A stretch of 64,000 nt of DNA, taken from contig JAFAZC010000050.1 in NCBI GenBank assembly GCA_019239965.1, positions 1 to 64,000 of the forward strand, written 5' to 3'. Position 1 is the first letter of the stretch, and the number at the start of each line of letters is the position of its first letter. Below are positions 10,718-33,422 of the stretch, one piece after another. This stretch comes from Kutzneria sp. (lineage in GTDB: Bacteria; Actinomycetota; Actinomycetes; Mycobacteriales; Pseudonocardiaceae). The position numbers and the translations under genes were made by a program. The notes beneath the pieces were generated by a model that did not search any database, was not told the origin of the DNA, and saw only the letters and a program-made list of their open reading frames with translations.

Positions 10718-12163
10718 ATGTCGGCGGCCGTGGGCACAGTCGCGGTGGTGGGGGCTGGCGCGGCGGGCGCTGTCACGGCCGTGCGTCTTCTCGAACGAGC
10801 CTCCGGTCGGCTGGAGGTGCTGCTGATCGACCCGGTACCGGGACACGGCCGCGGTGTGGCCTATGCGACGGCCGATCCGCGACACCGGCTGAACACCCCG
10901 GCGGGCCAGATGAGCGCGAGCGCGGACGACCCGCTGGACTTCGTGCGTTGGCTCGGTGGGCAGGCTGGACCCGGAGACTACGTCCCCCGAGCCCAGTTCG
11001 GCGCCTACCTCGCTGACTTCCTGGACCGAACGGTGAACCGAGGTGGTAGCGCGAGCCTGCGGCGGATCCATGCCAGAGTCGTTGGACTACGGGCCGGCCG
11101 TACCGGTGCGTCCGTGCGGTTGGCGCACGGAGGTGCCATCGAGGCGGATGCGGTCGTGCTCGCCATCGGGTCGTTCCCGGCGAGCACGATGGGTATTGCC
11201 GAGCGGTTGCGCGAATCGGCGAGGTTCGTGGCAGACCCGTGGGCGCCGGGCGCAGTGGCCGCGGTCCGGGAAACCGGTGACGTTCTCCTCGTCGGCACCG
11301 GCCTGACAATGATCGACATGGCGTTGTCACTGGAACGTCCGGGCCGTGTGGTGCACGCGGTGTCCCGGCATGGACTGCTGCCACGAGCACACTCGAACAC
11401 GCCGGCGGAGCCCGTCGATCCCCCTGACTTCGCCGGACTGGTTGGCCTGTCCTCGGTGCGCCGGGCCGTGCTCCGGCACGTCGGTGCCCGGGTGCGGGCC
11501 GACGGGGACTGGCGGGCCGCGATCGACGCGTTGCGCCCACTCGTACCGACCCTGTGGGCCGGTATGCCCATTGCCGACCGACTGCGGTTCCTGACGCAGG
11601 ACCGGCGGTTGTGGGATGTGCATCGGCATCGGATGCCGGCGACGACGGCCGCCGAGGTCGACGCCCTGCGCGTCAGCGGTCGACTCGTCGTGCACGCGGG
11701 CGAGATCACTGACGCGGCGCGGGTGGCCGATGGGCTGCGTGTCACCCTCTCGGACGGGGCGTCGCTGCGGGTGGCCGCCGTGGTGAACTGCACCGGCGTG
11801 CACGAGTACGTCGGCAGAGTCAGCGATCCGCTCGTTGACGAGCTGGTCGCCACGGGCGGGGCGCGTCCCGGACCGCTCGGACTCGGGTTCGACACGGCGC
11901 CGGATGGCCGGATCCTGCCCGCCGACGGACGCCGGGTGCCGGTGTGGACCTTGGGTTCGCCACGAAGGGGAACCCTTTGGGAAACGACGGCTTTCCCGGA
12001 AATACGGAAACAGGCGCGGGATATCGCCGCGAGCGTGCTTGCCGCTGGCCAGCAGCCGATCACCGATTCGGAGGAATTCGAACCATGGCGACATCCAGAT
12101 CGGACCCGCGACGGTCGACGTCGGCAACATCCACTGTGGACCGCGGGATCACCGTCTGGCTGA
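10718..12163 (+). CDS. FAD/NAD(P)-binding oxidoreductase, first gene of the sulfate-activation operon
   Basis: 481 residues. The Rossmann loop VAVVGAGAAGAVTAVRLLE is at residues 8-26. The NAD_binding_9 family signature YATADPRHRLNTPAGQMSA follows, then a second dinucleotide loop VLLVGTGLTMIDMALSLE near residue 190, and a late NCTGVHEYV. Proteins of this type (PF13454) are flavoenzymes of largely unknown reaction, distantly similar to lysine/ornithine N-hydroxylases. The 3' end overlaps cysC by 79 bases, so it is co-translated with APS kinase. No ribosome site precedes the ATG, and the Rrf2 operator lies immediately upstream. A redox role in sulfur metabolism is inferred from context only. Confidence 0.78.
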   Translation: MSAAVGTVAVVGAGAAGAVTAVRLLERASGRLEVLLIDPVPGHGRGVAYATADPRHRLNTPAGQMSASADDPLDFVRWLGGQAGPGDYVPRAQFGAYLADFLDRTVNRGGSASLRRIHARVVGLRAGRTGASVRLAHGGAIEADAVVLAIGSFPASTMGIAERLRESARFVADPWAPGAVAAVRETGDVLLVGTGLTMIDMALSLERPGRVVHAVSRHGLLPRAHSNTPAEPVDPPDFAGLVGLSSVRRAVLRHVGARVRADGDWRAAIDALRPLVPTLWAGMPIADRLRFLTQDRRLWDVHRHRMPATTAAEVDALRVSGRLVVHAGEITDAARVADGLRVTLSDGASLRVAAVVNCTGVHEYVGRVSDPLVDELVATGGARPGPLGLGFDTAPDGRILPADGRRVPVWTLGSPRRGTLWETTAFPEIRKQARDIAASVLAAGQQPITDSEEFEPWRHPDRTRDGRRRQHPLWTAGSPSG

Positions 12164-12672
12164 CCGGCTTACCCAGTGCGGGCAAGTCGACCATCGCGCT
12201 CGGCGTCGCTGAGCGGTTACGGGCCGACGGCCACCGGGTCGAGGTGCTGGACGGCGACGAGATCCGCGGGAATCTCACCGCGGACCTCGGATTCACGCGA
12301 GCCGACCGGGAAGAGAACGTCCGACGGATCGGGTTCATCGCGGAAATGCTGTCCCGCAACGGCATTATCACGCTGGTGCCGGTGATAGCACCCTATTCCG
12401 CCAGCCGGGACCGGGTTCGCGCCGAGCATGTGGCCAACGGCACCGACTTCGCCGAGGTGTACGTGGCGACGCCGGTCGAGGTGTGCACCTCACGTGACGT
12501 CAAGGGGCTGTATGCGAAACAGCGGGCTGGTCAGCTGACTGGGCTCACCGGAGTCGACGATCCGTACGAACCGCCGAACCATCCCGAGCTGTGTGTGCCC
12601 GCGCATACGCAGTCCGCCGCCGAGTCGATCGGCGTCGTCCATGGTTTCCTACTGACAAGGATCGCGGCATGA
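12085..12672 (+). CDS. cysC: Adenylylsulfate (APS) kinase
   Basis: 195 residues from the ATG at 12085, which has GGAGG ten bases upstream inside the previous gene. Walker A GLPSAGKS is at residues 28-35, followed by LDGDEIRGNL, the APS-binding RADREENVRRIGFIAEML and the late KGLYAKQRAG motif. All are diagnostic for CysC, which phosphorylates APS to PAPS with ATP. Length is standard. Its TGA overlaps the cysD start. A full cysC-cysD-cysN set makes PAPS, which can feed reductive assimilation or sulfotransferases. No PAPS reductase or sulfite reductase is in the window. Confidence 0.96.
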   Translation: MATSRSDPRRSTSATSTVDRGITVWLTGLPSAGKSTIALGVAERLRADGHRVEVLDGDEIRGNLTADLGFTRADREENVRRIGFIAEMLSRNGIITLVPVIAPYSASRDRVRAEHVANGTDFAEVYVATPVEVCTSRDVKGLYAKQRAGQLTGLTGVDDPYEPPNHPELCVPAHTQSAAESIGVVHGFLLTRIAA

Positions 12673-13565
12673 ACGCCGTGACGGATCTGGATGTGTTGGA
12701 ATCCGAGGCGATCCACATCATCCGGGAAACAGCCGGGGAGTTCGACCGGCCGGTGCTGCTGTTCTCCGGCGGCAAGGACTCCACCGTCCTGCTCCACCTG
12801 GCCCGCAAAGCCTTCCACCCCGCCCCCCTACCCTTCCCCCTGCTGCACATCGACACTGGCCACAACTTCGACGAAGTTCTCGCCTTCCGCGACCACACCG
12901 TCACCCACCACCAACTGCGCCTACACGTCGCGTGCGTGCAAGACTGGATCAACGACGGCCGACTTGCCGAACGCGCGGACGGCACCCGCAACCCCCTGCA
13001 AACAATCCCCCTGCTCGACACCATCACCACCCACCGCTTCGACGCCGTACTCGGCGGCGCCCGCCGCGACGAAGACCGCGCCCGCGCCAAAGAACGCATC
13101 GTCAGCCTCCGCGACACCTTCGGCGGCTGGGACCCCCGCCGCCAGCGCCCCGAACTGTGGAACCTCTACAACGGCCGCCACCGCCCCGGCGAACACGCCC
13201 GTATCTTCCCGCTGTCCAACTGGACCGAACTGGACATCTGGCGCTACGTCGACCAGGAGGCCATCGAGGTTGCCTGGCTGTACTACGCCCACCCCCGCAA
13301 GGTGTACCTGCACGAGGGCATGTGGTTGACCCCCGGCCCCTGGGGCGGCCCCCGCGACGGCGAACCCCTGCTCACCAAGACGGTGCGCTACCGCACCATC
13401 GGCGACGGCTCCTGCACCGGCGCGATCGAATCCACCGCCACCACCCCCACCCAGGTCATCGCCGAGATCACCGCGTGCCGCCTGACCGAACGCGGCGCCA
13501 CCCGCGCCGATGACCGCCTGAGCGAGGCGGCCATGGAAGACCGCAAACGGGAAGGCTACTTCTGA
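12669..13565 (+). CDS. cysD: Sulfate adenylyltransferase subunit 2
   Basis: 298 residues, ATG overlapping the cysC stop. The PP-loop LLFSGGKDSTVLLHLA is at about residues 28-43. LLHIDTGHNFDEVLAFRD, LGGARRDEDRARAKERI and FPLSNWTELDIWRYVD follow, and the C-terminus ends in EDRKREGYF, all typical of CysD. It joins sulfate to ATP's AMP, with CysN supplying GTP hydrolysis. From roughly 12800 onward the codon choice changes sharply: Pro is mostly CCC, Gln CAA and Glu GAA, unlike the neighbours, although the protein is intact. This suggests an acquired or recombined stretch. Confidence 0.96.
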   Translation: MNAVTDLDVLESEAIHIIRETAGEFDRPVLLFSGGKDSTVLLHLARKAFHPAPLPFPLLHIDTGHNFDEVLAFRDHTVTHHQLRLHVACVQDWINDGRLAERADGTRNPLQTIPLLDTITTHRFDAVLGGARRDEDRARAKERIVSLRDTFGGWDPRRQRPELWNLYNGRHRPGEHARIFPLSNWTELDIWRYVDQEAIEVAWLYYAHPRKVYLHEGMWLTPGPWGGPRDGEPLLTKTVRYRTIGDGSCTGAIESTATTPTQVIAEITACRLTERGATRADDRLSEAAMEDRKREGYF

Positions 13566-14848
13566 TGGGCGATCTGGTGCGGCTGACCACCGCCGGCAGC
13601 GTCGATGACGGCAAGTCCACCCTGGTCGGGCGGCTGCTGTATGACACCCGCTCGGTCCTGGCCGACCAACTGGCCGCCGTGCAGGACGCCTCGGCCCGCC
13701 GCGGGTCGGCCACCCTGGACCTGGCGCTGCTGGTCGACGGGCTGCGCGCCGAACGCGCCCAGGGCATCACCATCGACGTGGCCTACCGCTACTTCGCCAC
13801 CCCCGCCCGCTCGTTTATCTTGGCCGACGCCCCCGGGCACGTGCAGTACACCCGCAACATGGTCACCGGCGCCTGCACCGCCCAGGTGGCGGTCCTGCTG
13901 GTCGACGCCCGCACCGGTGTCCTCGAGCAAACCCGCCGCCACGCCGCGATCCTGGCCCTGCTCGGGGTGCCCCGGCTGGTGCTGGCGGTCAACAAGATCG
14001 ACCTGGTCGACTACGACGAGGCGGTCTTCGCCCGCATCGCCAAAGAGTTCACCGCCCACACCCTGGCCTTGGGATATCCCCACGAGCGGGTGGTGAGCAT
14101 CCCGGTCTGCGCGCTGCTGGGCGACAACGTGGTCGACCCCTCCGCGCACACCCCTTGGTATGCCGTGCCCACCCTGATCGAGCACCTGGACACCGTGCCG
14201 GTGCACGGGGATGCCAACCGGGTGGGGTTGCGGTTTCCCGTGCAGTACGTGATCCGACCCCGCACGCCGGAGTATCCGGACTACCGCGGCTATGCCGGCC
14301 AAATCGCCGCGGGCACGGTCACCGTCGGCGACCAGGTCATGGTGCTGCCCTCGGGGGTACGCTCCACCGTGTCCGGGATCGACTCCCCCCACGGCCCGTG
14401 CACCACCGCGACCACCGGTCAGTCGGTGACCCTGCTGCTGGCCGAGGACCTCGACGTGTCCCGGGGTGACCTGATCGCCACGGCCGCCGCGCCGCCACGG
14501 CTGACCCAGCAGGTCACCGCGACGCTGTGCTGGCTGGCCCAGCGTCCCGCGCACGCCGGCATGCGGGTGCTGGTCAAACACGGAACGCGCACCGTGCCCG
14601 CCCTGGTGACCGCCCTGCTGTCCCGGTTCGACGAGCAGACACTGTGCAGTATCGACGCTCCGGAGTCCCTAGCGCTCAACGACATCGGCCGGGTCACGCT
14701 GCGCAGCGCGCAGCCACTTCCGTTGGACGACTATGCACACGGCCGGGGAAACGGCGCTTTTCTGGTCATCGATCCCGCCGATGGCACAACACTGGCTGGT
14801 GGTCTGGTGGGTGCCCCGTTACCGGTGCTGGACCCGACCAGAACCTAG
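13565..14848 (+). CDS. cysN: Sulfate adenylyltransferase subunit 1 (GTPase)
   Basis: 427 residues; the ATG shares its A with the cysD stop (TGATG). G1 loop GSVDDGKST is at residues 11-19, the switch region has GITIDVAYRYF, G3 is DAPGH and G4 is NKID. Elongation-factor-like beta-barrels follow. The protein couples GTP hydrolysis to APS formation by CysD. It is a stand-alone CysN, not fused to CysC, consistent with the separate cysC upstream. The unusual CCC/GAA-rich codon style of cysD continues through most of it and fades after about 14640. It ends the operon. Confidence 0.96.
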   Translation: MGDLVRLTTAGSVDDGKSTLVGRLLYDTRSVLADQLAAVQDASARRGSATLDLALLVDGLRAERAQGITIDVAYRYFATPARSFILADAPGHVQYTRNMVTGACTAQVAVLLVDARTGVLEQTRRHAAILALLGVPRLVLAVNKIDLVDYDEAVFARIAKEFTAHTLALGYPHERVVSIPVCALLGDNVVDPSAHTPWYAVPTLIEHLDTVPVHGDANRVGLRFPVQYVIRPRTPEYPDYRGYAGQIAAGTVTVGDQVMVLPSGVRSTVSGIDSPHGPCTTATTGQSVTLLLAEDLDVSRGDLIATAAAPPRLTQQVTATLCWLAQRPAHAGMRVLVKHGTRTVPALVTALLSRFDEQTLCSIDAPESLALNDIGRVTLRSAQPLPLDDYAHGRGNGAFLVIDPADGTTLAGGLVGAPLPVLDPTRT

Positions 14849-14937: not shown

Positions 14938-16404
14938 ATGGTCACCGCGGTCGTTGAAGGCGTCGAGGTCGACACGCGGCACTGGATCGCGGGGCGCAGG
15001 GTGGCCTCGGGCTCGACGTTCACCGACATCTCGCCCATTGACGAGACTCCTCTCGCCGAGGTGTCCTCGGCGGGCCCAGCCGAGGTCGATGCGGCTGTCG
15101 CCGCTGCGCGTGCGGCGTTCCCTTCCTGGGCCAGCTGGTCGCGCGAGGAGCGGGCCGCCGTGCTGCACCGGGTGGCTGACGGTGTGGAAAGGCGGGCCGA
15201 GGAGTTGTCGGCGGTGGAAACCCGCGACAACGGCGCGCTGCTACGCTCCCACCGGCGGGGAGTCATGCCGAGAGCAGCGACGAACTTCCGCTTCTTCGCC
15301 GACCATCTGCTCACCCTGGACCGCTCCGCACCGGACATCGACGGCCACCGCCAGCGTGTCACGCACGATCCGGCCGGCGTCGCGGCCGTCATCACCCCGT
15401 GGAACGCCCCGCTGATGCTCGCGACATGGCGTATCGCACCAGCGCTCGCCGCCGGCAACACGGTCGTGGCGAAGCCGCCAGAGTGGGCGCCGCTGACCGC
15501 GTCGCTGCTTGCCGACATCACCGCCGACGCGGGCCTGCCCGCCGGTGTCCTCAACATCGTGCAGGGCACCGGCGAGGAAGCCGGCGCCCCGCTGTCGGCC
15601 CATCCCGGAATCAACCGGATGTCGTTCACCGGGTCCGTGCCGACCGCCGGCAGGGTAGCGGCGGCCGCGGCACCCAACATCGTGCCGCTGTCCTTCGAGC
15701 TCGGCGGCAAGTCCCCGCTCGTGGTGTTCGCGGACGCCGATTTCGACCTCGCTGTCGCGCTCGCTGTCGAGCAGTTCGACAACTCCGGCCAGGTCTGCCT
15801 CGGCGCGTTCCGGATCCTGGTTGAGGACCGCGTCGCGTCCGGTTTCGTCGACGCCGTTGTGGACCGTGCCAGCCAGCTCGTGCAGGGAGATCCTCGGGAA
15901 GAGACCACCGACATGAGCTGCCTGGTGTCCCGACGGCACTTCGAGCGGGTCGACGGATTCGTCCGCCGGGCGAGGGCAGCTGGTGCGAGCGCGATCCTCG
16001 GCGGCGGACCCAACCACGACGTCGGTCACCTGTTCTACCGGCCGACCATTCTCGCGGGCGCCGAGCCGGGCGCCGAGATCCTCACCGAGGAGGTGTTCGG
16101 GCCGGTCCTGACCGTGCAGACCTTCGAATCCGAGGACCAGGCCGTCGCCATGGCCAATGACACCCGCTTCGGGCTCGCGGCCACGCTGGTCACCGGCGAC
16201 CCCGAGCGGGCGGAGCGAGTCAGCGCGCTGATCTCGGCCGGCACCGTCTGGGTCAACTGTTTCTTCGTACGCGACCTCGGCGCGCCGTTTGGCGGCAACG
16301 GCCATTCCGGCATTGGCCGCGAAGGCGGCGGGTGGTCATTCGACTTCCACTGCGACGTGAAGAACACGGTGTTCGCGCCCACTGGGTGGCGCGACAGTGG
16401 CTGA
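14938..16404 (+). CDS. NAD(P)-dependent aldehyde dehydrogenase
   Basis: 488 residues. The ATG at 14938 has GAGGAG five bases upstream; an upstream in-frame ATG lacks one. N-terminal segment HWIAGRRVASG, then ITPWNAPLML with the conserved Asn, FTGSVPTAGRVA, the catalytic Glu in ELGGKSP (about residue 254) and the catalytic Cys in NSGQVCLG (about residue 287). The ending FGGNGHSGIGREGG is normal. It is closest in style to dehydrogenases for 2-hydroxymuconic or 5-carboxymethyl-2-hydroxymuconic semialdehyde, but the substrate is not decided. It stands alone after cysN with a 90-bp gap. Confidence 0.9.
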   Translation: MVTAVVEGVEVDTRHWIAGRRVASGSTFTDISPIDETPLAEVSSAGPAEVDAAVAAARAAFPSWASWSREERAAVLHRVADGVERRAEELSAVETRDNGALLRSHRRGVMPRAATNFRFFADHLLTLDRSAPDIDGHRQRVTHDPAGVAAVITPWNAPLMLATWRIAPALAAGNTVVAKPPEWAPLTASLLADITADAGLPAGVLNIVQGTGEEAGAPLSAHPGINRMSFTGSVPTAGRVAAAAAPNIVPLSFELGGKSPLVVFADADFDLAVALAVEQFDNSGQVCLGAFRILVEDRVASGFVDAVVDRASQLVQGDPREETTDMSCLVSRRHFERVDGFVRRARAAGASAILGGGPNHDVGHLFYRPTILAGAEPGAEILTEEVFGPVLTVQTFESEDQAVAMANDTRFGLAATLVTGDPERAERVSALISAGTVWVNCFFVRDLGAPFGGNGHSGIGREGGGWSFDFHCDVKNTVFAPTGWRDSG

Positions 16405-16468
16405 GTCGCGTCGCCGCTGCCGCTAATTCCATCGACAGGGACAGTCGCGAGCGCCACACTGTCCTGTC

Positions 16469-18364
16469 ATGGCTTCTGGAACGATCCCGGTCCTGTGGCT
16501 GTGCGGTCCGCCAGGAGTCGGCAAGACCGCGGTCGGCTGGGAGATCTACTCGCGGCTGATCCGATCTGGCGTCGCCGCCGGCTACGTCGACATCGACCAG
16601 CTGGGCATCTGTTATCCGGAGCCCGTGTCCGATCCCGGTCGGCACCGGATGCAGGCGCGCAATCTGGGTGCCGTGGTAGCCGGTTTCCGCGCCGCTGGCG
16701 CGCGGTGTGTCGTGGTGTCCGGTGTTGTCGACGCGGTCGACGGAGTTCCTGATGAGGATGTTCCCGAGGGCACCCTGACCCTGTGCCGGCTGCGCGCCGG
16801 CCGGAACGAGCTCAGGCGGCGGTTCATGGCCCGCGGCACAAGGGGCGAGCACGTGGCGGAGGTGCTGCGTGAAGCCGACGCGCTCGATGCCTGCGGCGTG
16901 ACCGATATCTGCGTGGACACCACCGGCCTGTCGATGGCCGACGTGGCCGAGCAGGTATGCGAACGCACGGGCGGGTGGCCGGCCCTCGCGGATCAGTACC
17001 AGGAAACGTCCACAGTGGAGTCAGCTGTGTATACGGCCGATGTGGTCGAGGGGCCGATTCTGTGGGTGTGCGGCGCGACCGGGGCCGGCAAGTCGGCTGT
17101 GGGCTTTGCCGTCTACCAGAAACTTCTCCGTACCGGTATGACCGCGGCCTACATCGATGCGGGCCAGGTCGGCTTCTGCGGCGCGGTCCAGGGCGATCAC
17201 CGGGTGAAGGCGCGCATCCTCGCGGCGATGTGGCGGACCTATCGGGACGCCGGGGCCCAAGGACTGGTCGTGGTCGGGCAGGTCGAGGACGAGGCCGCGG
17301 CGGCGGTGTACTCCGGTGCGCTGCCGGGAGCCACCGTCGCGCTGTACCGGTTGCACGCCGAGCGCGACCAGCTGACCCGGCGGATCATGCTGCGCGGTCG
17401 GGGCGACAATTGGCCGGAGCCGGGCGATCCGTTGGTGGGACAGCCGGAGGTGTCTCTGCTCCGGGCCGCTGACCACGCCGTCGCCGACGCCGAGGAGTTG
17501 GAACGCAACGCGATCGGTCTGCGGATCGACACGGACGGGCGCACTGTGGAGGAGATCGCCGAGGAGATCGTCGGTCGGTCGGGATGGCTGGACCGGATGT
17601 CCGCGACCGTCACCGCGCTCAGGGCCGCCGGCTGTGTGTTCGCCGAGGACGAGGCCCGGCTACTCGTCGCCGCGGCGAGGACACCAGAGGACCTCGCCGC
17701 CATGGTCGAGCGGAGAGCCACCGGTGTTCCTCTGGAAGTCATCCTCGGCTGGGTGGAGTTCCGCGGTCTGCGGATAGCCGTGGATGCCGGGGTGTTCGTG
17801 CCGCGCCGGCGCAGCGAGTTCCTGGTCGAGCAGGCTGTTGCCGTGGCCAGACCGGGTGCCGTCGTGGTGGACCTGTGCTGTGGCACGGGGGCGCTGGGCG
17901 TCGCCGTCGCGGCCGAACTCGGTGACATCGAGTTGCACGCCGTCGACGTCGAGTCCGCCGCAGTTCGGTGTGCTCGCCGCAACGTCAGCGCGGCCGGTGG
18001 CCAGGTGCACGAGGGTGACCTCTACGACCCACTGCCCGCGGATCTGCGAGGTCGTGTCGACGTGCTGGTGGCCAACGCGCCGTACGTGCCAACCGACGAG
18101 ATCGACATGATGCCTCCGGAGGCTCGAGAGCACGAACCGTGGGTGGCGCTCGACGGCGGGCCGGACGGCGTCGACGTGCAGCGGCGAGTCATCGCGGCCG
18201 CGCCGCTGTGGTTGGCGCCCGGCGGACATCTGCTGATCGAGACGAGCGCACGGCAGACGCCGCTGACCGTCGGCGCCATGACCAGCGGCGGACTCGTGTC
18301 CACAGTGGTCCGTTCCGAGGAGCTGCACTGCACCGTAGTGGTCGGCGCCAAGCCCGCGCTATGA
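16469..18364 (+). CDS. Fusion of two P-loop NTPase domains with a PrmC-like N5-glutamine methyltransferase
   Basis: 631 residues in one open frame. Domain 1 (about 5-170) has Walker A GPPGVGKT at 13-20 and an aspartate-rich strand YVDIDQ. Domain 2 (about 190-370) is a diverged copy with GATGAGKS at 202-209 and YIDAGQ. Domain 3 (about 377-631) is a Rossmann methyltransferase: VDLCCGTG at 467-474 and NAPYVP at 536-541. The NAPY form in place of NPPY marks the PrmC-related branch (TIGR03704 type) of uncertain substrate. Met377 begins what is normally a free-standing protein, but only a weak ribosome site precedes it and no stop separates the parts. An internal start giving a second, shorter product is possible. 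What the NTPase part does is unknown. Confidence 0.8.
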   Translation: MASGTIPVLWLCGPPGVGKTAVGWEIYSRLIRSGVAAGYVDIDQLGICYPEPVSDPGRHRMQARNLGAVVAGFRAAGARCVVVSGVVDAVDGVPDEDVPEGTLTLCRLRAGRNELRRRFMARGTRGEHVAEVLREADALDACGVTDICVDTTGLSMADVAEQVCERTGGWPALADQYQETSTVESAVYTADVVEGPILWVCGATGAGKSAVGFAVYQKLLRTGMTAAYIDAGQVGFCGAVQGDHRVKARILAAMWRTYRDAGAQGLVVVGQVEDEAAAAVYSGALPGATVALYRLHAERDQLTRRIMLRGRGDNWPEPGDPLVGQPEVSLLRAADHAVADAEELERNAIGLRIDTDGRTVEEIAEEIVGRSGWLDRMSATVTALRAAGCVFAEDEARLLVAAARTPEDLAAMVERRATGVPLEVILGWVEFRGLRIAVDAGVFVPRRRSEFLVEQAVAVARPGAVVVDLCCGTGALGVAVAAELGDIELHAVDVESAAVRCARRNVSAAGGQVHEGDLYDPLPADLRGRVDVLVANAPYVPTDEIDMMPPEAREHEPWVALDGGPDGVDVQRRVIAAAPLWLAPGGHLLIETSARQTPLTVGAMTSGGLVSTVVRSEELHCTVVVGAKPAL

Positions 18365-18385
18365 CGCGGCCGTCCCGTGGTCTGG

Positions 18386-18781
18386 TCACTCCAAGACGGT
18401 TTGGCGGTCCGCGGCGGAAAAAGCGATGACGAAGATGGCCTCGTCCCTACCAGTATTTCTGGCATTGTGCAGGGTTCCGCTCGGAATGCTGATCGTGTCG
18501 CCTGCCGTCATGGCCATCCGGTCGTCGCCGATGCTGTGTTCGATGGTGCCCTGCAGAACGTGCAGGACCTCGTCGCAGTTGGGATGGTAATGACGAGGAT
18601 TCGCCTTGCCCGGGGTGATGTAGCAGCGGCCGACCGTCATCACGCCGGAGTTTCCGAGCCGCCCCGACACCATCCACACCAGCCGTCCCCAGTCGTGCTC
18701 CTCGACGTCATAGTCACCGGGACGTGCGGGTCTGACGTGCGTCGGTGCCGCCTGTGGTCGGGTCGTCCTACCGTTGGTCAT
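18386..18781 (-). CDS. Single-domain cupin
   Basis: 131 residues from the ATG at 18781, which has GGGAGG nine bases ahead. The metal-binding cupin motif 1 is HYHPNCDEVLHVLQGTIEH and motif 2 is IPSGTLHNARN. In both the His and Glu ligands are present. Cupins of this size are isomerases, dioxygenases or ligand binders; the reaction is not known. The gene overlaps the end of the upstream Gfo/Idh/MocA oxidoreductase by 14 bases, so they are co-translated and likely act on the same compound, perhaps a sugar derivative. Confidence 0.85.
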   Translation of the reverse strand: MTNGRTTRPQAAPTHVRPARPGDYDVEEHDWGRLVWMVSGRLGNSGVMTVGRCYITPGKANPRHYHPNCDEVLHVLQGTIEHSIGDDRMAMTAGDTISIPSGTLHNARNTGRDEAIFVIAFSAADRQTVLE

Positions 18782-19915: not shown

Positions 19916-21064
19916 TCACGACACCGCGGCGGCCAGGACGGCGAGTGAAGTCACCACACCGTCGCGCACCTTCTGGTCGGCGACAAGGCCCTCGTCGTCG
20001 ATTGTCGAGCCGTGCACCGGTAGGTGTGCGCACGCGTCCTCGACGATGGTGGCGCCGGTGTACTCCAGCACTTTGCGCAGCGACGCGTGCGCATCGGCTG
20101 CCCTCGTACCGGATGCCGAGACGTTGATCCACGCGGTTGGCTTGTTCCCGATCTCGACTCCGCCGACGGTCCAGTCGAGCAGGTTCTTGAAAGCGCCTGG
20201 CAACGCACCCGCGTACTCGGGGGTGCAGATCAGAATCGCGGCCGCTCGGTCGATGCGCGTGCGCAGGTCGACGACCGCGGGATGCGGTCGATCGTGGTCG
20301 TCATCGGGGTTGAAGTGCGGGAGCGCGCCCATGCCGTCGTAGGCAACCGCGGCGAAGCCGGCCGGAGCCAGTGCCCGCGCGGTGCGCAACAGCGCCGCGT
20401 TTGTCGACCCCGAACGCAGGCTTCCACACAGCAGAAGGATCGCCCGGGTAGTCGTCACCCCGCTGAGTCTAGGGTCGACCCGGTTCGGCGCAGGCGACGT
20501 CCCATGCAGTGACCGTCGGAAGAACGCCGTGAGTTCTTCTCGGGTGGGTGGCGGATCGGCAAGCAGGGCTTGCATCAGCAGGCCACAGAAGGCGGCGGCG
20601 AGCAGCCGCCCGGTGTTCGGATCGGTGCGCGCGGCGAATAGCTCCGTCACGGCGTTGTCCCAGGCGGTACTCGCCGCCCGCAGGCGGGGTCGGTGCAGGG
20701 CGGCGACGTAGAGCTCGTACTCCACAACGGTCTGGGCGCGGTCGTCGGTGAGCGCGTATGTGACCAGATCGGCGAGCGCGGTGGCCAGGTCGGCGCCGGG
20801 CGCCAGGCTCCGCTCCCATTCTCGCAGCTTGGCGACGTTGTGCTCCGCCGCGGTACGGAGCGCGGCGGCGAGCAGATCATCGAGGGTAGCGAAGTGATAG
20901 GTGGTGGAACCCAGCGGTACACCCGCTGTCGCGGCGACCGCACGGTGGGTCACCGCGGCCACCCCGCCCTCGGCGACCACCGCGATGGCCGCCAGTGTGA
21001 TCCGCTGCCGGCGTGTCGGATCGGTGGGACCTCGGCCCCGTTTGCCGGTGTTGTCGTTCGCCAC
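19916..21064 (-). CDS. TetR regulator fused to an NADPH-dependent FMN reductase
   Basis: 382 residues from GTG at 21064 (GGAGG about eleven bases ahead; TTG at 21067 and GTG at 21076 are alternatives). Residues about 10-60 are a TetR helix-turn-helix, with GGVAAVTHRAVAATAGVPLG then STTYHFATLDDLL. The TetR ligand domain runs to about 190. After a Pro-rich linker comes a flavodoxin-like reductase: ILLLCGSLRSGSTNAALLR binds FMN phosphate and TPEYAGALPGAFKNLLDW is the second flavin motif. Both halves look complete and no stop lies between them. A GTG at the linker could start the reductase separately but has no ribosome site. It is divergent from betB, so it may be a redox-sensing repressor of the choline genes. 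That role is inference. Confidence 0.75.
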   Translation of the reverse strand: MANDNTGKRGRGPTDPTRRQRITLAAIAVVAEGGVAAVTHRAVAATAGVPLGSTTYHFATLDDLLAAALRTAAEHNVAKLREWERSLAPGADLATALADLVTYALTDDRAQTVVEYELYVAALHRPRLRAASTAWDNAVTELFAARTDPNTGRLLAAAFCGLLMQALLADPPPTREELTAFFRRSLHGTSPAPNRVDPRLSGVTTTRAILLLCGSLRSGSTNAALLRTARALAPAGFAAVAYDGMGALPHFNPDDDHDRPHPAVVDLRTRIDRAAAILICTPEYAGALPGAFKNLLDWTVGGVEIGNKPTAWINVSASGTRAADAHASLRKVLEYTGATIVEDACAHLPVHGSTIDDEGLVADQKVRDGVVTSLAVLAAAVS

Positions 21065-21103
21065 CAAGATCAGCACCTCCGGTCAGACGTGACAGGGCTT
21101 CGG

Positions 21104-25913: not shown

Positions 25914-26522
25914 TCACGTCTGGTACTCCAGTGCCGCGTCCAGCAGCCAGTCGGCGACGTAGCGCGCGAACGAGGCACGGGGCAGCAGCCAGAGAGCCGA
26001 CGGATCGCCTGACCGCGCGAGCAGGATCACCTGAGCGCGGGCGATGAGAGTCTGTGCGCACTGGTCGGTGGTGAACGACCTTGGATGCAAGTCGATCGCG
26101 CATCCCTTGGCCAGCACTGTGCGGCACCACGGGCCGGAAAGCTCGACGACGGTGCGTTGGCCGGAGACGTCTACCACGGCGCCGTTGGCCCCGATGACGC
26201 GGTGCAGTGCCCGCGTGAGCGGCGTTTGCGTGCCGTCGGGTGCGAGGACGAGCCACTCGTCGGGTCCGAGCCCGAGGGTGAGCGGTGATTCGCCGATGAC
26301 GTGTCCGGGCGGCGGCAGCGGCCCACCCAGGATGTCGCCGACGTCCGCCTGGGGATCCGCACGGAGCGCGAGGTGGGCGAACGCAGGCAGCTCGGTGACA
26401 CCCACCGCGCCGCGGGTGGCTGCGGCGAGTGCGGCGAAGCGGTCGACATAGCCTTCCAGCGGACTGCCGGTGCGGTCGGCGGGACGGCGCCGCACCGGGG
26501 TGGAGGCGGCCTCAGCCGTCAC
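25914..26522 (-). CDS. soxG: Sarcosine oxidase gamma subunit
   Basis: 202 residues from GTG at 26522, which has AAGGAG six bases upstream. It reads LALRADPQADVGDILGGPLP, GPDEWLVLAPDG and a long run with VVDVSGQRTVVELSGPWCRTVLAKGCAIDLHP, the typical gamma-subunit core with the GcvT-like fold. The last part ARYVADWLLDAALEYQ matches family ends. SoxG structures the heterotetramer and contacts the alpha-beta interface. Its start overlaps the soxA stop by 11 bases, as expected in a soxBDAG operon. Confidence 0.92.
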   Translation of the reverse strand: MTAEAASTPVRRRPADRTGSPLEGYVDRFAALAAATRGAVGVTELPAFAHLALRADPQADVGDILGGPLPPPGHVIGESPLTLGLGPDEWLVLAPDGTQTPLTRALHRVIGANGAVVDVSGQRTVVELSGPWCRTVLAKGCAIDLHPRSFTTDQCAQTLIARAQVILLARSGDPSALWLLPRASFARYVADWLLDAALEYQT

Positions 26523-29364
26523 GGCGGGCTCCTTCCTTGTCGTAGAAGACAGGGTCGGTGACGATGACCGGAACGGGTCGATCGTCAACCACCGCGTGGA
26601 TCCGCCGTCCTACCCGGTGCCGGCCGGCCTCCACCAGGGCCAGCGCGAAGGTGCGGCCAAGCGCGGGGCTGCGGTAGCTGGACGTGACATGGCCGAGCAT
26701 GGGGACGGGTGGCGCGGGAAGCTCCGCGTCGGCCACGAGCTGGCAGCCCTCCGGAAGCAGCAGGTCGGGATCAACCGGAAGCAGCCCGACGAGGTGTTTG
26801 CGGTCGCCACGGGCGGTGTCCGGTCGGCTGAAGGAGCGCTTGCCGATGAAGTCGCGTTTCTTCTTCGATACCGCCCAGTCCAGGCCGAGATCCTGTGGGG
26901 TGACCGTCCCGTCGGTGTCCTGTCCGATGATGGGGTACCCCTTCTCGGCGCGCAGGACATGCATGGTCTCCGTGCCGTACGGTGTGATGCCCAAATCGGC
27001 TCCGGCGTCACACAGTTCCGTCCAGATCCGCTGAGCGTGGCGCCATGGGACGTTGATCTCGAAGGCCAGCTCGCCGGAGAAGCTGATCCGGCACACTCTT
27101 GCCGTGGTCCCGGCGAGGGTGGCATCCCGCCACGCCATGAACGGGAAGCTCGCGTTGTCGAGCGCGAGGTCCCCGGCGAGGCGTCGCAGAACAGTGCGGG
27201 AGCGGGGACCGACCAGCGCGACGGTGGACCAGTGCTCGGTCACCGACGTGAGGTAAACCCGCAGATGCGGCCACTCCGTCTGCAGCCACTCTTCGAGCCA
27301 GTCCAGCACGGCCGCGGCGTTCCCGGTGGTGGTCGTGAGCAGGAAGTGGTTGTCGGCCAGCCGAATGACGGTTCCGTCGTCGAAGACCATGCCGTCGGCC
27401 CGGCACATCAGGCCGTACCGGATCCGGCCGACCCTCAGGGTGCTCATCATGGTGGTGTAGACGCGATCGAGGAACTCGGCGGCGTCCCGTCCCTGAACGT
27501 CGATCTTGCCGAGCGTGCTCGCGTCCATCATGGCGACCGACCGTCGTGCCGCCACGCACTCCCGCCAGACCGCCGCGGCCATGTCCTCGCCGGGCCGCGG
27601 GTAGTACCAGGGCCGCTTCCACTGGCCTACGTTCTCGAACATCGCGCCGGCGGCAACGTGCCAGTCGTGCAGCGCGGTGACCCGGACCGGGTCGTGCAGC
27701 GCGCCGCGGTCCGTGCCGGCGAGCGCGGCGAAGGTGACCGGTGTGTAGGGCGGGCGGAAGGTTGTCGTGCCCAGTTCGGCGGGATCGACGCCGAGTATGG
27801 TCGCGACCACGCCGGTAGCGAGGACCCCAGAGGTCTTGCCCTGCTCGTGACCGGTGCCGACGGTGGTGTAACGCTTGACGTGCTCCACCGACCGCAGCCC
27901 GGCGTCCGTCGCGCGCACGATGTCCGCGACGGTGGCGTCCCTCGCCAGGTCGACGTAGTGCCGCCGGTAGTCCCCGGAAGGATCGGGTACAAGCCACAGC
28001 GCGGTGCTCGGTGTCGGCGTGCGCTGAAGGACCGCGGGCATCGGCGCCGCATCCGCGGACAGGCCGACTGTCCGCGACGCTTGCGCACCAATGCGAGCCC
28101 CATCGGCAAGGCAGTCGGCCAGTGTGACCGCGCCACGTGCGGCACCGCCGACAAACACCCGTTGGCGGGCCCGCGCTGGCACGAAAGCTGCGAGTTGGCT
28201 GTCATAGCGCAGACCGCCCCCTGCCTGGCTGAACAGGTGCACCGCCGGATTCCAGCCGCCGGAGACCAGAACCGTGTCACAGTCCACCTCGCGGTGCCCC
28301 TGAAGCCGTCCGTCGCGCAGTTCGGCGAGGCAGGCGCCGCTGATCCGGGCGTCTCCACGGGTGCCGGCCACCACATGACCGGCGAGCACCTCGATGTCCG
28401 CGGCGGCGCACGCCTTGGCCAGATCGTCGGGAACCTCGGGCCGGGCGTCGGCGAGTGCGGTCACCGGCACACCGGCGCCTGCCAGATCGATGGCCGCCTG
28501 GTAGGCGCCGTCGTTGGTGGTGAACACGACAACGCGGCGGCCGGGCAGCACGCCGTAGCGGTGCAGGTAGGTACGAGCGGCAGCGGCCAGCATGACTCCC
28601 GGTCGATCATTGTCGGAGAAGGCGACCGACCGCTCGTGCGCGCCGGTGGCCAGGACAACGGCACGGGCCCGGATACACCACATCCGTTGCCGCGACGTTC
28701 GTTCCGGGGCGGCGGTGCCGAGGTGGTCGGTACGGCGTTCACAGGCCACGACGTAGTTGTCGTCGTAGTAACCGAAAGCCGTGGTTCGCGGCAGCACCGT
28801 GACGTCCTGGCAGCCGGCCAGTTCGGCGCACACGCCGGAAACCCAGGCTATGGGAGGCCTTCCCTCCAGCGGCGCGGTCTCGGCGAGCAGGTCGCCGCCG
28901 AGTTCGCTCTGGTCGTCGAGCAGCATCACCCTGGCCCCGGCGCGCGCCGCCGTGAGCGCCGCCAGCAGGCCCGTCGGGCCGCCACCGACCACGAGGACGT
29001 CGGCGTGTGCGTACATGGTGTCGTACCGTGCCGGATCGGGCCGACTGGTCAGCGCGCCTTTTCCGGACAGGCCGCGTGCCCGCAGGCCGGCACACACCTC
29101 AACGGTGGTCGCGGCCAGCGTTGGTTCATCGAACGGCTCCTCCACCTGCACCAGCGCGCACGGCTCGGTCACACCGCTGGCGAGAATCCCACGCGGTCGG
29201 CATGAGTGAACTCCGCGCGACACCTGATGTACGCCGTTGGCCAGCAGCGCTGAGGCCAGCGTGTCTCCCGCGTAGCCGAGGTACTCGGTGCCATCAAAGA
29301 CGAACGGGATTGGGCGATCGCGGTCGATCCGTCCGGCGTTCGCGAGGCGGAATTCGTTGTCCAT
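26512..29364 (-). CDS. soxA: Sarcosine oxidase alpha subunit
   Basis: 950 residues, normal for the heterotetrameric alpha subunit. It has an N-terminal ferredoxin-like segment (FDGTEYLGYAGDTLASALL, residues 25-43), the NAD-binding loop VLVVGGGPTGLLAALTAARAG near residue 125, and a second dinucleotide loop near residue 285 (RRVVVFTTNDGAYQAA). The last 380 residues are GcvT-like: SRTVLRRLAG and GTETMHVLRAEKGYPIIGQDTDG bind tetrahydrofolate. The complex oxidises sarcosine to glycine, passing the methyl to folate. Start is two bases from the soxD stop. Confidence 0.95.
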   Translation of the reverse strand: MDNEFRLANAGRIDRDRPIPFVFDGTEYLGYAGDTLASALLANGVHQVSRGVHSCRPRGILASGVTEPCALVQVEEPFDEPTLAATTVEVCAGLRARGLSGKGALTSRPDPARYDTMYAHADVLVVGGGPTGLLAALTAARAGARVMLLDDQSELGGDLLAETAPLEGRPPIAWVSGVCAELAGCQDVTVLPRTTAFGYYDDNYVVACERRTDHLGTAAPERTSRQRMWCIRARAVVLATGAHERSVAFSDNDRPGVMLAAAARTYLHRYGVLPGRRVVVFTTNDGAYQAAIDLAGAGVPVTALADARPEVPDDLAKACAAADIEVLAGHVVAGTRGDARISGACLAELRDGRLQGHREVDCDTVLVSGGWNPAVHLFSQAGGGLRYDSQLAAFVPARARQRVFVGGAARGAVTLADCLADGARIGAQASRTVGLSADAAPMPAVLQRTPTPSTALWLVPDPSGDYRRHYVDLARDATVADIVRATDAGLRSVEHVKRYTTVGTGHEQGKTSGVLATGVVATILGVDPAELGTTTFRPPYTPVTFAALAGTDRGALHDPVRVTALHDWHVAAGAMFENVGQWKRPWYYPRPGEDMAAAVWRECVAARRSVAMMDASTLGKIDVQGRDAAEFLDRVYTTMMSTLRVGRIRYGLMCRADGMVFDDGTVIRLADNHFLLTTTTGNAAAVLDWLEEWLQTEWPHLRVYLTSVTEHWSTVALVGPRSRTVLRRLAGDLALDNASFPFMAWRDATLAGTTARVCRISFSGELAFEINVPWRHAQRIWTELCDAGADLGITPYGTETMHVLRAEKGYPIIGQDTDGTVTPQDLGLDWAVSKKKRDFIGKRSFSRPDTARGDRKHLVGLLPVDPDLLLPEGCQLVADAELPAPPVPMLGHVTSSYRSPALGRTFALALVEAGRHRVGRRIHAVVDDRPVPVIVTDPVFYDKEGARRDG

Positions 29365-29365
29365 G

Positions 29366-29638
29366 TCAGGTCACCGGTGCGCTTTCCCCCGTGCGGTAGG
29401 TGGCGACGATCTGGTGGGTCCTGGTGTCGCGGACGGCGTTGAACCAACGCCGACAGGCGCTACCATGGCACCAGCGTTCGGCGAACCGACCTTGGGGATT
29501 GTCCCGGTAGAACAGGTACCGGGCCCACTGTTCGTCGGTGAGCACCGACGGATCGTCCGGATAGGACACATGTGCCTGCCCGCCATAGTGGAACTCGGTC
29601 TCGTCGCGCGGCCCGCACCATGGGCACTCGATCAGCAT
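29366..29638 (-). CDS. soxD: Sarcosine oxidase delta subunit
   Basis: 90 residues. The start at Met is set by homology (MLIECPWCGPRDETEF) and by GGGAG nine bases upstream; the frame is open to 29698. It carries the zinc-site pattern ECPWCG, later a His, and RWCHGSACRRWF with two more Cys. It has the conserved PRDE.EF.YGG.A core. SoxD is a small zinc-binding subunit of the heterotetramer. It is tightly packed between soxB and soxA. Confidence 0.95.
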   Translation of the reverse strand: MLIECPWCGPRDETEFHYGGQAHVSYPDDPSVLTDEQWARYLFYRDNPQGRFAERWCHGSACRRWFNAVRDTRTHQIVATYRTGESAPVT

Positions 29639-29660
29639 CAACGGTGACTCCCGGTCAGTC

Positions 29661-30893
29661 TCAGTGTGCGACGGCAGCGGCGCCGTGTTCGTCGACAAGG
29701 GCGCCCGTGGCGAACCGTTCGAGCGTCAGCGGGGCCGCCAGTGGGTGCGGCACACCGTTGGCGATCGTGTCCGCATAGCACCACCCGGCGCCGGGGGTGG
29801 CCTTGAATCCGCCGGTTCCCCAGCCGCAGTTGAGGTATAGGCCGTCGATCGGGGTAAGGCCGAGAATGGCGGAGGCGTCCGGAGTCACGTCGACGATCCC
29901 ACCCCAGGTGCGCAGTACGTGTGCCCGGGCGAAGATCGGAAACAGTTCCAGTGCCGCGGCGAGCTGCCGCTGGATGACGTGCAGGCCGCCGCGCTGGGCG
30001 TAGGAGTTGTACTGGTCGATGCCCGCGCCCATCACCAGTTCACCTTTGTGCGCCTGGCTGACGTAGACGTGCACGGCGTTGGACATCACCACTGTCGGAT
30101 GCACTGGCTCCAGCAGCTCGGAGACCAGGGCCTGCAGCGGGTGGCTCTGTACAGGCAACCGGAGGCCGGCCATCTCGGCCAGCACGCTGGAGTGCCCCGC
30201 CGCGCACAGCGCGACCTTTCGCGCGGTGAGCAAGCCGCGCGTCGTGCTGACTCCGGTCACGCGGCCGCTGTCCACCTCGATCCCGGTGACCTCGCAGTCC
30301 TGGATGAGGTCGACGCCGAGACGGTCGGCGGCTCTTGCGAATCCCCAGGCCACGTAATCATGTCTTGCGATTCCGGCTCGTGGTTGGTACGTCGCGCCAA
30401 GGACCGGATAGCGGACGTCGGGGGAGATGTTGAGGATCGGGCAGATCTCCAGGGCCTGTCGAGGATCCAGCCATTCCGCGTCGATCCCGTTGAGCCGGTT
30501 GGCGTTGACCCGACGAACGCCCTCGCGCACATCCTGCGGACTGTGCGCGAGGTTGAGCACACCACGCTGGCTGAACAGGATCGGGCAGTCCAGGTCGTCG
30601 GCGAGCCCCTCCCACAGCTTCATGGCGTGCTCGTAGATTCCGGCGCTGGCATCCAGCAGGTAGTTCGACCGGATGATGGTGGTGTTCCTCGCCATATTGC
30701 CGCCGGCGAGCCAGCCCTTGTCGACCACCGCGACGTCGGTGATGCCGTGGTTGCGGGCCAGGTAGTACGCGGTGGCGAGGCCGTGTCCACCACCGCCGAC
30801 TATCACGACGTCGTAGCCGCGCTTGGGTTCCGGATCGCGCCACAGCGTCGCCGGCAGCTCGGGTACCGCGTCGGCGGTGTCCTGCGCGGTCAT
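29661..30893 (-). CDS. soxB: Sarcosine oxidase beta subunit
   Basis: 410 residues. The DAO-type FAD motif [20 protein letters not shown] is at residues 27-46. Then [26 protein letters not shown], the covalent-flavin region of beta subunits, and C-terminal [20 protein letters not shown]. SoxB carries noncovalent FAD and covalent FMN and holds the active site that removes the methyl hydride from sarcosine. It heads the B-D-A-G order and probably is co-transcribed with the dimethylglycine dehydrogenase gene 29 bp upstream. Confidence 0.95.
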
Positions 30894-30922
30894 CGGATGG
30901 CTTCCCTCCGCATCGGTACCGC

Positions 30923-33355
30923 TCAGCTCCGCAGCCTGGCCATGCCAGGATCGAACAGGGGTTCCTCGGCCACGGTCGCCGGCAGTCGCGCGTCGAAATA
31001 GCCGATGTGGACCGCCTCACCGGGGCGTACGAGTTCCGCGGGCAGCCAGGCGTAGGCGATGCTCCTGCCCACGGTGTGACCGTAACCAGCACTGGTGACG
31101 TACCCGACGCGGTGCTCGTCCCGGTACACCGGTTCGGAGCCCATCATCACCGTGTCCGGATCGTCCAGCGTGAGACAGGCCAGCCGCCGCCGCACTCGGT
31201 CCCGGCGCCGCATTACCGCGTCACGGCCGAGGAACTCCGGCTTGTCCAGTTTCACGGCAAAGCCGAGACCAGCCTCGTAGGGGTCGTGCTCGAAGGTCAT
31301 GTCGATGCCGAAGGAGCGGTAGCCCTTCTCAAGGCGCAAGCTGGTGAAGGCCCCACGCCCAGCCGCGATGATCTGGTGCGGCTGGCCGGATTCCCAGAGC
31401 AGGTCCCACAGGGTGCGGCCGAGGTCGGCGGTGGTGTACAGCTCCCAGCCCAGTTCTCCGACGTAGGACACACGCAACGCGGTGACCGCGACGGTGCCGA
31501 GGTAGGCGGTGCGGGCCCGGAAGTACTTCAGGCCGGCATTGGAGAAGTCCGCGTCGGTCAGGGGTTGCAGCACGTCACGCGCCTTCGGTCCCCACAATCC
31601 CAGGCAGCAGGTGCCGGCGGTGATGTCGCGGACCGACACCGAGCCGTCGGCGGGAACATGCCGGTTCAGCCAGTCGAGGTCGAGGTTGCCGTTGGCGCCG
31701 AGCTGGAACCGGTGTCGCCCCAACCTGGTCACCGTGATGTCGCTGCGGACGCCGCCGTCGACGTCGAGCAGAAGACAGTACGTGACCGATCCGACGGACT
31801 TGTCCACGTTGCCGGTGCACAGTCGTTGCAGGAAGGTGGTGGCGCCCACGCCGGTGACCTCCAGCCGGGTCAGCGCCGTCATGTCGTAGAGCGCCACCGC
31901 CTCACGGGTGTGCTGTGCCTCGGCGGCCACGATCGGCGACCAGTACCTGCCGGCCCACTCGTCGGGCACGGGAATATCCCGTCCCGCAACGAGCCCGGCG
32001 TTGGCTTCGTACCACTGCGGACGCTCCCAGCCGGAGGCCTCGAGGAAGACCGCGCCCAGCTCGCGCTGTCGTTCGTAGAAGGGCGCGGTACGGATGGGTC
32101 GCGGGGCTTCCATCGGCTCCAGCGGATGTTTGACGTCGTAGACCTCGACGAAGTTCTGGCAGCCCCGGGTCAGCACGTAGTCGGGGGCCAGCTGATGGGC
32201 CTGGAACCGGTTGACGTCGCACTCGTGCAGGTCGAAGGAGGAGCAGTGGCCGTCGACGAGCCATTCGGCCATCGCACGACCGACACCCGCGGAATGGGTC
32301 ACCCACACCGCCTCGGCGACCCAGAACCCCTGGACCTCGGGTGACTCGCCGAGCAGCGGCATGTTGTCGGGGGTGAACGAGAACAGGCCGTTGATGCCGT
32401 CGTCGACCGTGGTGTCCCGCGCCGCGGGCAGCAGCGACAGGGTTTCCGCCCACGCCGGAGCGAAGTCCTCGACGGTGAACGCGAGCACCGAGGGCATGGC
32501 CGACTCGGCGCCGGGGAGGTCGCTCACCGCGACCGGCATCGGCCGGTGACCGTAGTAGCCGATATCGAGGCGGTCGAACCGTTCCCGGTAGTACAGGTCG
32601 GCTTCCTGATGACGCAGGATGGGATGGGTGACTTCCTCCGCGCTGCCCCCGTTAGCGGGCAGCGGGGTGGTCCACGCGAGTTGATGAGCCAGCGGTGTCA
32701 GCGGAAGCGCCATGCCGACCATGCCGGCGATCCGCGGTCCCCAGATGCCGGCGCAGCACACCACGACGTCGGCATCGATCTCGCCGTGGTCGGTGCGCAC
32801 CCCGGTAACCCGGCCGTCGACGGACCGCACGTCGAACACTTCGGTCCGGTCACGCACCCGCACACCGCGTGCCTGGGCCCGCCGCAGTTGCGCCGCGACG
32901 GCCCGCACCGCCTTGGCTACACCGTCGGTCGGAACGTGCAGCCCGCCCAGAACCCGGTCCTCGTCCAGCAGGGGGAACAGGCGCACGCATTCCGCTGGCG
33001 GCGCCATGTGGGCGTCGATGCCGGCGGCGGCGAGCCAGCCGTGGCGGCGGTGCAGGTCGGCCAGCCGCCGCGGTGTCGTCGCGACCTCGAGGCCGCCGAC
33101 CTGAAGAAAGCAGGGCTGGCCGTCGACGTTGAGCGAGTACAATTTCTCGACGGTGTACCGGGCCATCGAGATCATCGCCCTGGAGGCGTTCACCTGGAAC
33201 ACCAAACCCGGCGCGTGCGAGGACGAGCCGCCGGATTCGGGAAGCCTGCCCCTCTCCACGACGGTGATGTCGCGCCAGCCGCGGCAGGACAACTCGTCGG
33301 CAAGGGCAGCACCGACAACGCCGGCGCCGATGATGACGACGCGCGGTTCGGTCAT
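30923..33355 (-). CDS. Dimethylglycine dehydrogenase-like FAD/GcvT protein
   Basis: 810 residues; ATG at 33355 has GGAGG five bases ahead. The N-terminal DAO domain has [18 protein letters not shown] and [20 protein letters not shown] middle FAO domain follows, then a GcvT/aminomethyltransferase domain with [35 protein letters not shown] and [17 protein letters not shown]. This DAO-FAO-GcvT layout is that of dimethylglycine and sarcosine dehydrogenases that pass formaldehyde-level carbon to tetrahydrofolate. In the island it fills the dimethylglycine-to-sarcosine step. The choice between DMG and sarcosine is from context, since SoxBDAG already covers sarcosine. Confidence 0.9.
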
Positions 33356-33405
33356 GCAGGCCTCCACGACGCGCCAGATCGAACGCAGCGCGCTATACGA
33401 AACAA

Positions 33406-33422
33406 TGGGCGCAATACGCAAC
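33406..33422. promoter_or_regulatory. Possible IclR operator upstream of the demethylation operon
   Basis: On the minus strand GTTGCGTATTGCGCCCA matches 11 of 17 positions of the perfect repeat at 35865-35881, with the front half GTTGYGTAKTGCRC nearly identical. It lies about 50 bp upstream of the dimethylglycine dehydrogenase start. A direct repeat ATACGMAAC (33395 and 33414) spans it at 19-bp spacing. Confidence 0.45.

Follow-up and report, generated by a model that had tools for sequence, protein, structure and literature searches.

Organization of the locus

The window analyzed here is a stretch of 64,000 nucleotides from Kutzneria sp. On its plus strand, positions 16469-18364 form a single open frame of 631 codons running from ATG to TGA, in which two kinase-fold domains are followed by a PrmC-related methyltransferase. 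The parts of the frame are as follows:

16469..18364, plus strand: fused open reading frame, 631 amino acids plus stop; GC3 uniform
16484..16984, plus strand: kinase-fold domain copy 1, residues 6-172 (PF13238, AlphaFold model, structural neighbors)
16505..16528, plus strand: Walker A of copy 1, GPPGVGKT, residues 13-20; K19 in 50/50 rows
16589..16600, plus strand: DIDQ (DxDQ) of copy 1, residues 41-44; D41, D43 and Q44 in 50/50 rows
17048..17581, plus strand: kinase-fold domain copy 2, residues 194-371 (AlphaFold model; structural neighbors over 191-376; 36% identity to copy 1)
17072..17095, plus strand: Walker A of copy 2, GATGAGKS, residues 202-209; K208 is K in 47/50 rows and T in 3/50
17582..17599, plus strand: junction, residues 372-377, where the natural end of the pair meets Met377, the start site of free methyltransferase relatives
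17597..18361, plus strand: PrmC-related methyltransferase domain, residues 377-631 (TIGR03704, 396.4 bits)
18074..18085, plus strand: NAPY motif (NPPY in PrmC), residues 536-539

A sequence-only reading had described this stretch as a three-domain frame without a stop, and this was confirmed. GC3 lies between 0.73 and 0.91 across all 14 full 45-codon blocks and is 0.89 in the block that crosses the junction (361-405). The two Walker A motifs are where that reading had placed them, and the two halves of the N-terminal part align at 36% identity (E 6e-30).

On the same strand, the fused gene is preceded by genes for a FAD/NAD-binding protein, by cysC-, cysD- and cysN-like genes, and by an aldehyde dehydrogenase gene that ends 64 nt before it. 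The three cys-like genes stand in a row at 11944-14848 (plus strand), and the cysC-like gene means that a true APS kinase is present separately. Downstream, on the opposite strand, are genes for a cupin and a Gfo/Idh/MocA oxidoreductase. A promoter scan of 16300-18500, limited to the sigma-70-like type, detected none.

The genome of the window (G000) is a draft of 208 contigs and 4.7 Mb with a completeness of 94%; six congeners have 10-12 Mb, a difference that may stem from a reduced lineage or from an incomplete draft. The 64 long frames of the window sum to 0.92 of its length, with overlaps counted twice. None of 15 aldehyde dehydrogenase stretches in the same genome contains an internal stop, and those on contig C14 fall in two frames.

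Another joined frame lies 1.5 kb downstream of the fused gene. At 19916-21076 (minus strand), a TetR-type regulator and an NADPH-dependent FMN reductase share one frame of 386 amino acids. This protein was matched in 20 of 60 genomes (E <= 1e-30, its own included), and no match in the other 19 spans both halves. Two unrelated fusions within 5 kb may point to a lineage that tolerates stop losses, or to the quality of the draft.

The kinase-like pair

Neither Pfam nor NCBIfam has a separate name for the two-domain family to which residues 1-376 belong. When one genome per species was scanned, 393 relatives of the pair came up, and 72 of the best 80 (the named loci) carry both domains in one frame. 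Within the taxonomic family, the pair is present in 75 of 390 genomes, the window's included (E <= 1e-20). The two-domain half is thus an ordinary, widespread actinobacterial protein. The architecture had been called the most unusual in the window; this stands for the joining of the methyltransferase but not for the presence of two NTPase domains in one frame, which is normal for the protein family. Some genomes split the domains into two adjacent frames (e.g., G059). Some records label two-domain relatives as AAA family ATPase or adenylyl-sulfate kinase. Outside the usual actinomycetes, the two-domain protein turns up in metagenome bins that bear the labels Latescibacteria/Latescibacterota, Planctomycetota or Acidimicrobiia type (L100, L101, L123 and L157).

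The uncharacterized actinobacterial relatives resemble the window's pair at up to about 61% identity, yet they stop where the window continues into the methyltransferase. Among the relatives listed, one-frame pairs close 0-23 residues past the aligned end, with one exception at 48 (L071). The tail measures at most 26 residues in 71 of the 74 named loci in which it was measured, and 48, 71 and 81 residues in the remaining three.

Structures were predicted separately for the kinase pair and for residues 338-631. The AlphaFold model of the pair (50 rows) has a pLDDT of 91.6 and a pTM of 0.90. Its nearest solved folds are thymidylate, adenylate, gluconate, shikimate and chloramphenicol kinases together with TmrD, tied at Z scores of 13-15, and almost all of the 50 structural neighbors listed are kinases. 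Among full-domain sequence matches, the best were to an archaeal APS kinase (E 2e-9) and to TmrD (E 6e-8); RecA rows that topped the matches were set aside as short P-loop hits recurring along artificial multi-RecA chains. PF13238 (AAA_18) scores 39.8 bits over residues 11-127, against a gathering score of 29.4, and is matched by 50/50 rows with E values up to 0.001. PF13191 (AAA_16) is likewise above its gathering score. In the predicted structure, the two N-terminal domains look more like P-loop kinases that phosphorylate a substrate than like a gate. The earlier proposal of an NTP-gated methylation step finds no support here, nor is any coupling visible in the sequence.

Several known kinases were compared with the pair. 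Like APS kinase (CysC), the pair is built of P-loop kinase domains and exceeds the gathering score of PF01583, but it falls far below the apsK cut-off of TIGR00455 (37.1 vs 138.7 bits). Chloramphenicol phosphotransferase (1qhs, Z 13.9) and TmrD (2vli, Z 13.8) are fold neighbors of the window's domains, both tied with thymidylate, adenylate and gluconate kinases. In PMC7085159, GAR is described as a member of PF13238 that carries Walker A and DxD and confers aminoglycoside resistance; its likeness to the pair is drawn from these described features. GAR shows that a domain of this type is able to act on small molecules. Unlike the window's pair, 1qhs, TmrD and GAR are single-domain proteins, and many other kinases tie with the fold neighbors at Z 13-15.

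Residue conservation differs between the two copies. In copy 1, K19, D41, D43, Q44, R118 and R122 are invariant in 50/50 rows. Copy 2 has its own invariant set (D230, Q233, R305, R309, G319 and D320, also 50/50). Its Walker lysine is K in 47 rows and T in 3, and the second Asp of its DxD is kept in no more than 26 of 50 rows, the window having G at this position. This difference suggests a strict catalytic-type site in copy 1 and, in copy 2, one that is relaxed or plays a supporting part. Three relatives (L063, L064 and L065) have another residue in place of the copy 2 Walker A lysine (GVGTS) but retain the remainder of the domain, which suggests that copy 2 may be dead there.

The methyltransferase domain

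The methyltransferase had been read as complete, and it is: residues 381-627 cover positions 2-251 of the 251 in TIGR03704 (PrmC_rel_meth), scoring 396.4 bits against a cut-off of 248.8. The HemK family model TIGR00536 is also passed (141 bits, cut-off 115.5), and the PrmC model TIGR03534 is not (175.6 bits, cut-off 199.1). NPPY is the motif of PrmC. The window has NAPY in its place, and N[A/V/T]PY is found in 35/35 rows (33 different sequences, the window included), as NAPY in 24, NVPY in 8 and NTPY in 3. Another protein of the same genome (L002) passes the PrmC cut-off and carries NPPY. With its NAPY motif, its sub-cut-off PrmC score and a canonical PrmC elsewhere in the genome, the domain is assigned by sequence to TIGR03704 and not to the housekeeping PrmC. 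It shares a fold family with the PrmC/HemK release-factor glutamine methyltransferases (Thermotoga HemK, E 9e-24). TIGR03704 itself is named "putative protein N(5)-glutamine methyltransferase", and its members elsewhere share the motif variants but are free proteins of about 250 amino acids, whereas the window's copy is joined to the kinase pair. Protein methylation, as the sequence-only reading had proposed, is unproven for a domain that differs from PrmC in both score and motif.

Descent of the domain from a methyltransferase of its own genus (g1) was considered and is unsupported. In the methyltransferase tree, the window's row groups with G021 of another genus (98/94), and four of the five other g1 rows form a group of their own; this tree leaves out G005 and the two sequences closest by identity (G129, 74%; G951, 73%), and it leaves 20 of 30 internal branches open. 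TIGR03704-like methyltransferases with 53-63% identity occur on plasmids of Peribacillus, Metabacillus, Priestia and Arthrobacter, which indicates that this family moves widely. A role in defense was set aside, as the PADLOC match to mad2 (E 5.8e-19) spans only the methyltransferase core (442-595). So was a phage origin, with weak P-loop matches for the pair in PHROGs (best E 0.0011); the methyltransferase matches one unnamed family there (phrog_23041, E 6e-26).

The junction

The two halves are both full length and meet in one frame at their natural ends. Free methyltransferase relatives begin a few residues upstream of LRAAGC, a position that matches Met377. When the sequence is read in the shifted frames, the first stops after residue 371 come 178 and 326 nt beyond Met377. 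A model of residues 338-631 built from four rows (mean pLDDT 76) runs the pair's final helix straight into the opening helix of the methyltransferase, as a single predicted helix over 360-386, where the block-mean pLDDT values are 49, 68 and 86.

Occurrence of the fusion

Within the genus, the fusion is found in one of seven genomes, that of the window; the others include Kutzneria sp. 744 and Kutzneria sp. CA-103260. Three of these six also have the pair (E <= 1e-45), at 7.4 Mb and 2.7 Mb from the methyltransferase in two and on a different contig in the third. All 75 genomes of the taxonomic family with the pair also have the methyltransferase, and the two genes are separate in the 74 other than the window's. 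The fusion was absent from the 80 named loci, from 397 order genomes and 396 phylum genomes, and from the matches listed in 394 class genomes; these three draws overlap each other and the taxonomic-family set, and three first-look candidates were scored per genome. None of 72,556 plasmid records has a single place covering more than 80% of the fused protein, and no paper was found in the open-licence PMC literature. The fusion is real but so far unique: among the sets examined, the same domain order occurs solely in the window's genome. The statement that NTPase pairs and such methyltransferases normally exist as separate proteins holds for every other genome examined. With the fusion in a single genome, conservation gives no sign that selection maintains the fused form.

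Gene neighborhood in relatives

The pair and the methyltransferase lie on one contig in 35 of the 74 other genomes and on different contigs in the remaining 39. In 28 of the 35, the genes are more than 130 kb apart. In the other seven they lie within 21 kb and are convergent in all. Five of these are g25 genomes, three of them Saccharopolyspora hirsuta, S. indica and S. kobensis, with gaps of 22, 260, 1093, 1495 and 2072 bp. The last two are G294 (11.1 kb) and G363 (20.6 kb), which have pair-side genes common to these two only. Two further g25 genomes (G378 and G392) carry a pair that is more distant and sits on another contig. Flanking genes are common to all five close g25 loci, which are thus counted as one ancestral arrangement. 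For a genome of 8 Mb, two genes would come to lie no more than 2.1 kb apart with a rough chance of about 5 in 10,000 per independent event, uncorrected for the 15 genera looked at. Convergent adjacency in the g25 genomes is suggestive of a common task, but is not proof of it, and convergent genes are not an operon.

When the first 40 kb of the window was compared with 15 stretches including the g25 loci, the fused gene was all that they had in common. A conserved partner of the pair was sought by all-vs-all comparison of neighboring frames of at least 110 amino acids around the 80 named loci, and no non-overlapping neighbor recurred in more than nine. Every neighbor family present in at least 10 other loci overlaps the pair itself (shadow frames).

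Interpretation of the fused gene

On balance, the fused gene probably arose in this lineage by the end-to-end joining, without a linker, of two complete genes that are otherwise independent, and its modules most likely still work independently. A single polypeptide would be made. Copy 1 of the kinase pair would use ATP to phosphorylate a small metabolite or natural product, with copy 2 as a relaxed second or supporting site. The C-terminal domain would transfer a methyl group from SAM to an acceptor of its own. The main effect of the fusion might then be to keep the amounts of the two modules linked, perhaps as both are needed for one compound or pathway. Continuity of frame and GC3, the complete methyltransferase and the well-modeled kinase fold all favor this explanation. 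So do the relatives on either side, which end at the join or begin near Met377, the catalytic-type residues of copy 1 in 50/50 rows, and the separate genes in the 74 other genomes of the taxonomic family. The missing second Asp of DxD in the window's copy 2 fits it less well, and the convergent genes in five genomes could mean a closer working link.

Such a link, in which the kinase pair and the methyltransferase act sequentially on the same compound or protein, or in which ATP use by the pair controls methylation, is rather unlikely. It draws on the existence of a natural fusion, on the close convergent genes in g25, and on the single predicted helix through the junction, which would make a rigid join. 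Against it, the five g25 loci amount to one arrangement of genes that are not an operon, distance is the rule in the measurable genomes, the window has no other genes in common with these loci, and the pLDDT of the helix stretch is only 49-86. The kinase-linked methylation step suggested earlier survives as a hypothesis, helped by the Saccharopolyspora-type gene neighborhood. A "Rosetta stone" version is slightly less probable again. Here, a single compound or protein would be phosphorylated by an asymmetric kinase pair (a strict DxDQ site and a relaxed one) and methylated by the N[A/V/T]PY enzyme, in an undescribed actinobacterial kinase-methyltransferase route that perhaps protects against or tailors a natural product. 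It is improbable, though a shade less so than a misassembly, that the locus yields two products, with an internal start at Met377 giving a free methyltransferase and the fused form being a by-product or a regulated longer form. Met377 is an ATG at the place where free relatives begin and is preceded at 5-7 nt by a weak GGA, but there is no strong ribosome-binding sequence, and the promoter scan, confined to the sigma-70-like type, was negative.

Least probable, finally, is an artefact in which a base error or misassembly hides a stop between two adjacent genes. The small, fragmented draft makes this conceivable, as do its being the single genome with the fusion, the second fusion nearby, the aldehyde dehydrogenase match split between two frames on contig C14, and the four codons among 366-376 that are one substitution short of a stop. 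A one-base indel is nonetheless a poor explanation, because the positions of the shifted-frame stops would overextend the pair by about 59 or 109 codons, and relatives close within 0-23 residues (48 in L071). The intact aldehyde dehydrogenase stretches and the dense long frames of the window also speak against it, and chance joining in a chimera would scarcely have kept the frame and hit the natural ends of both genes.

Both families are common in actinobacteria. The fusion, taken with the side-by-side genes in Saccharopolyspora-type genomes, offers a testable clue to one task. If this clue is wrong, the gene still stands as a clear example of two intact enzymes fused with no linker between them.

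Other genes of the window

Farther downstream, positions 25914-33421 (minus strand) encode SoxG, the large subunit, SoxD and a DAO subunit of sarcosine oxidase, beside a further DAO and aminomethyltransferase protein. This is an ordinary C1-catabolism cluster.
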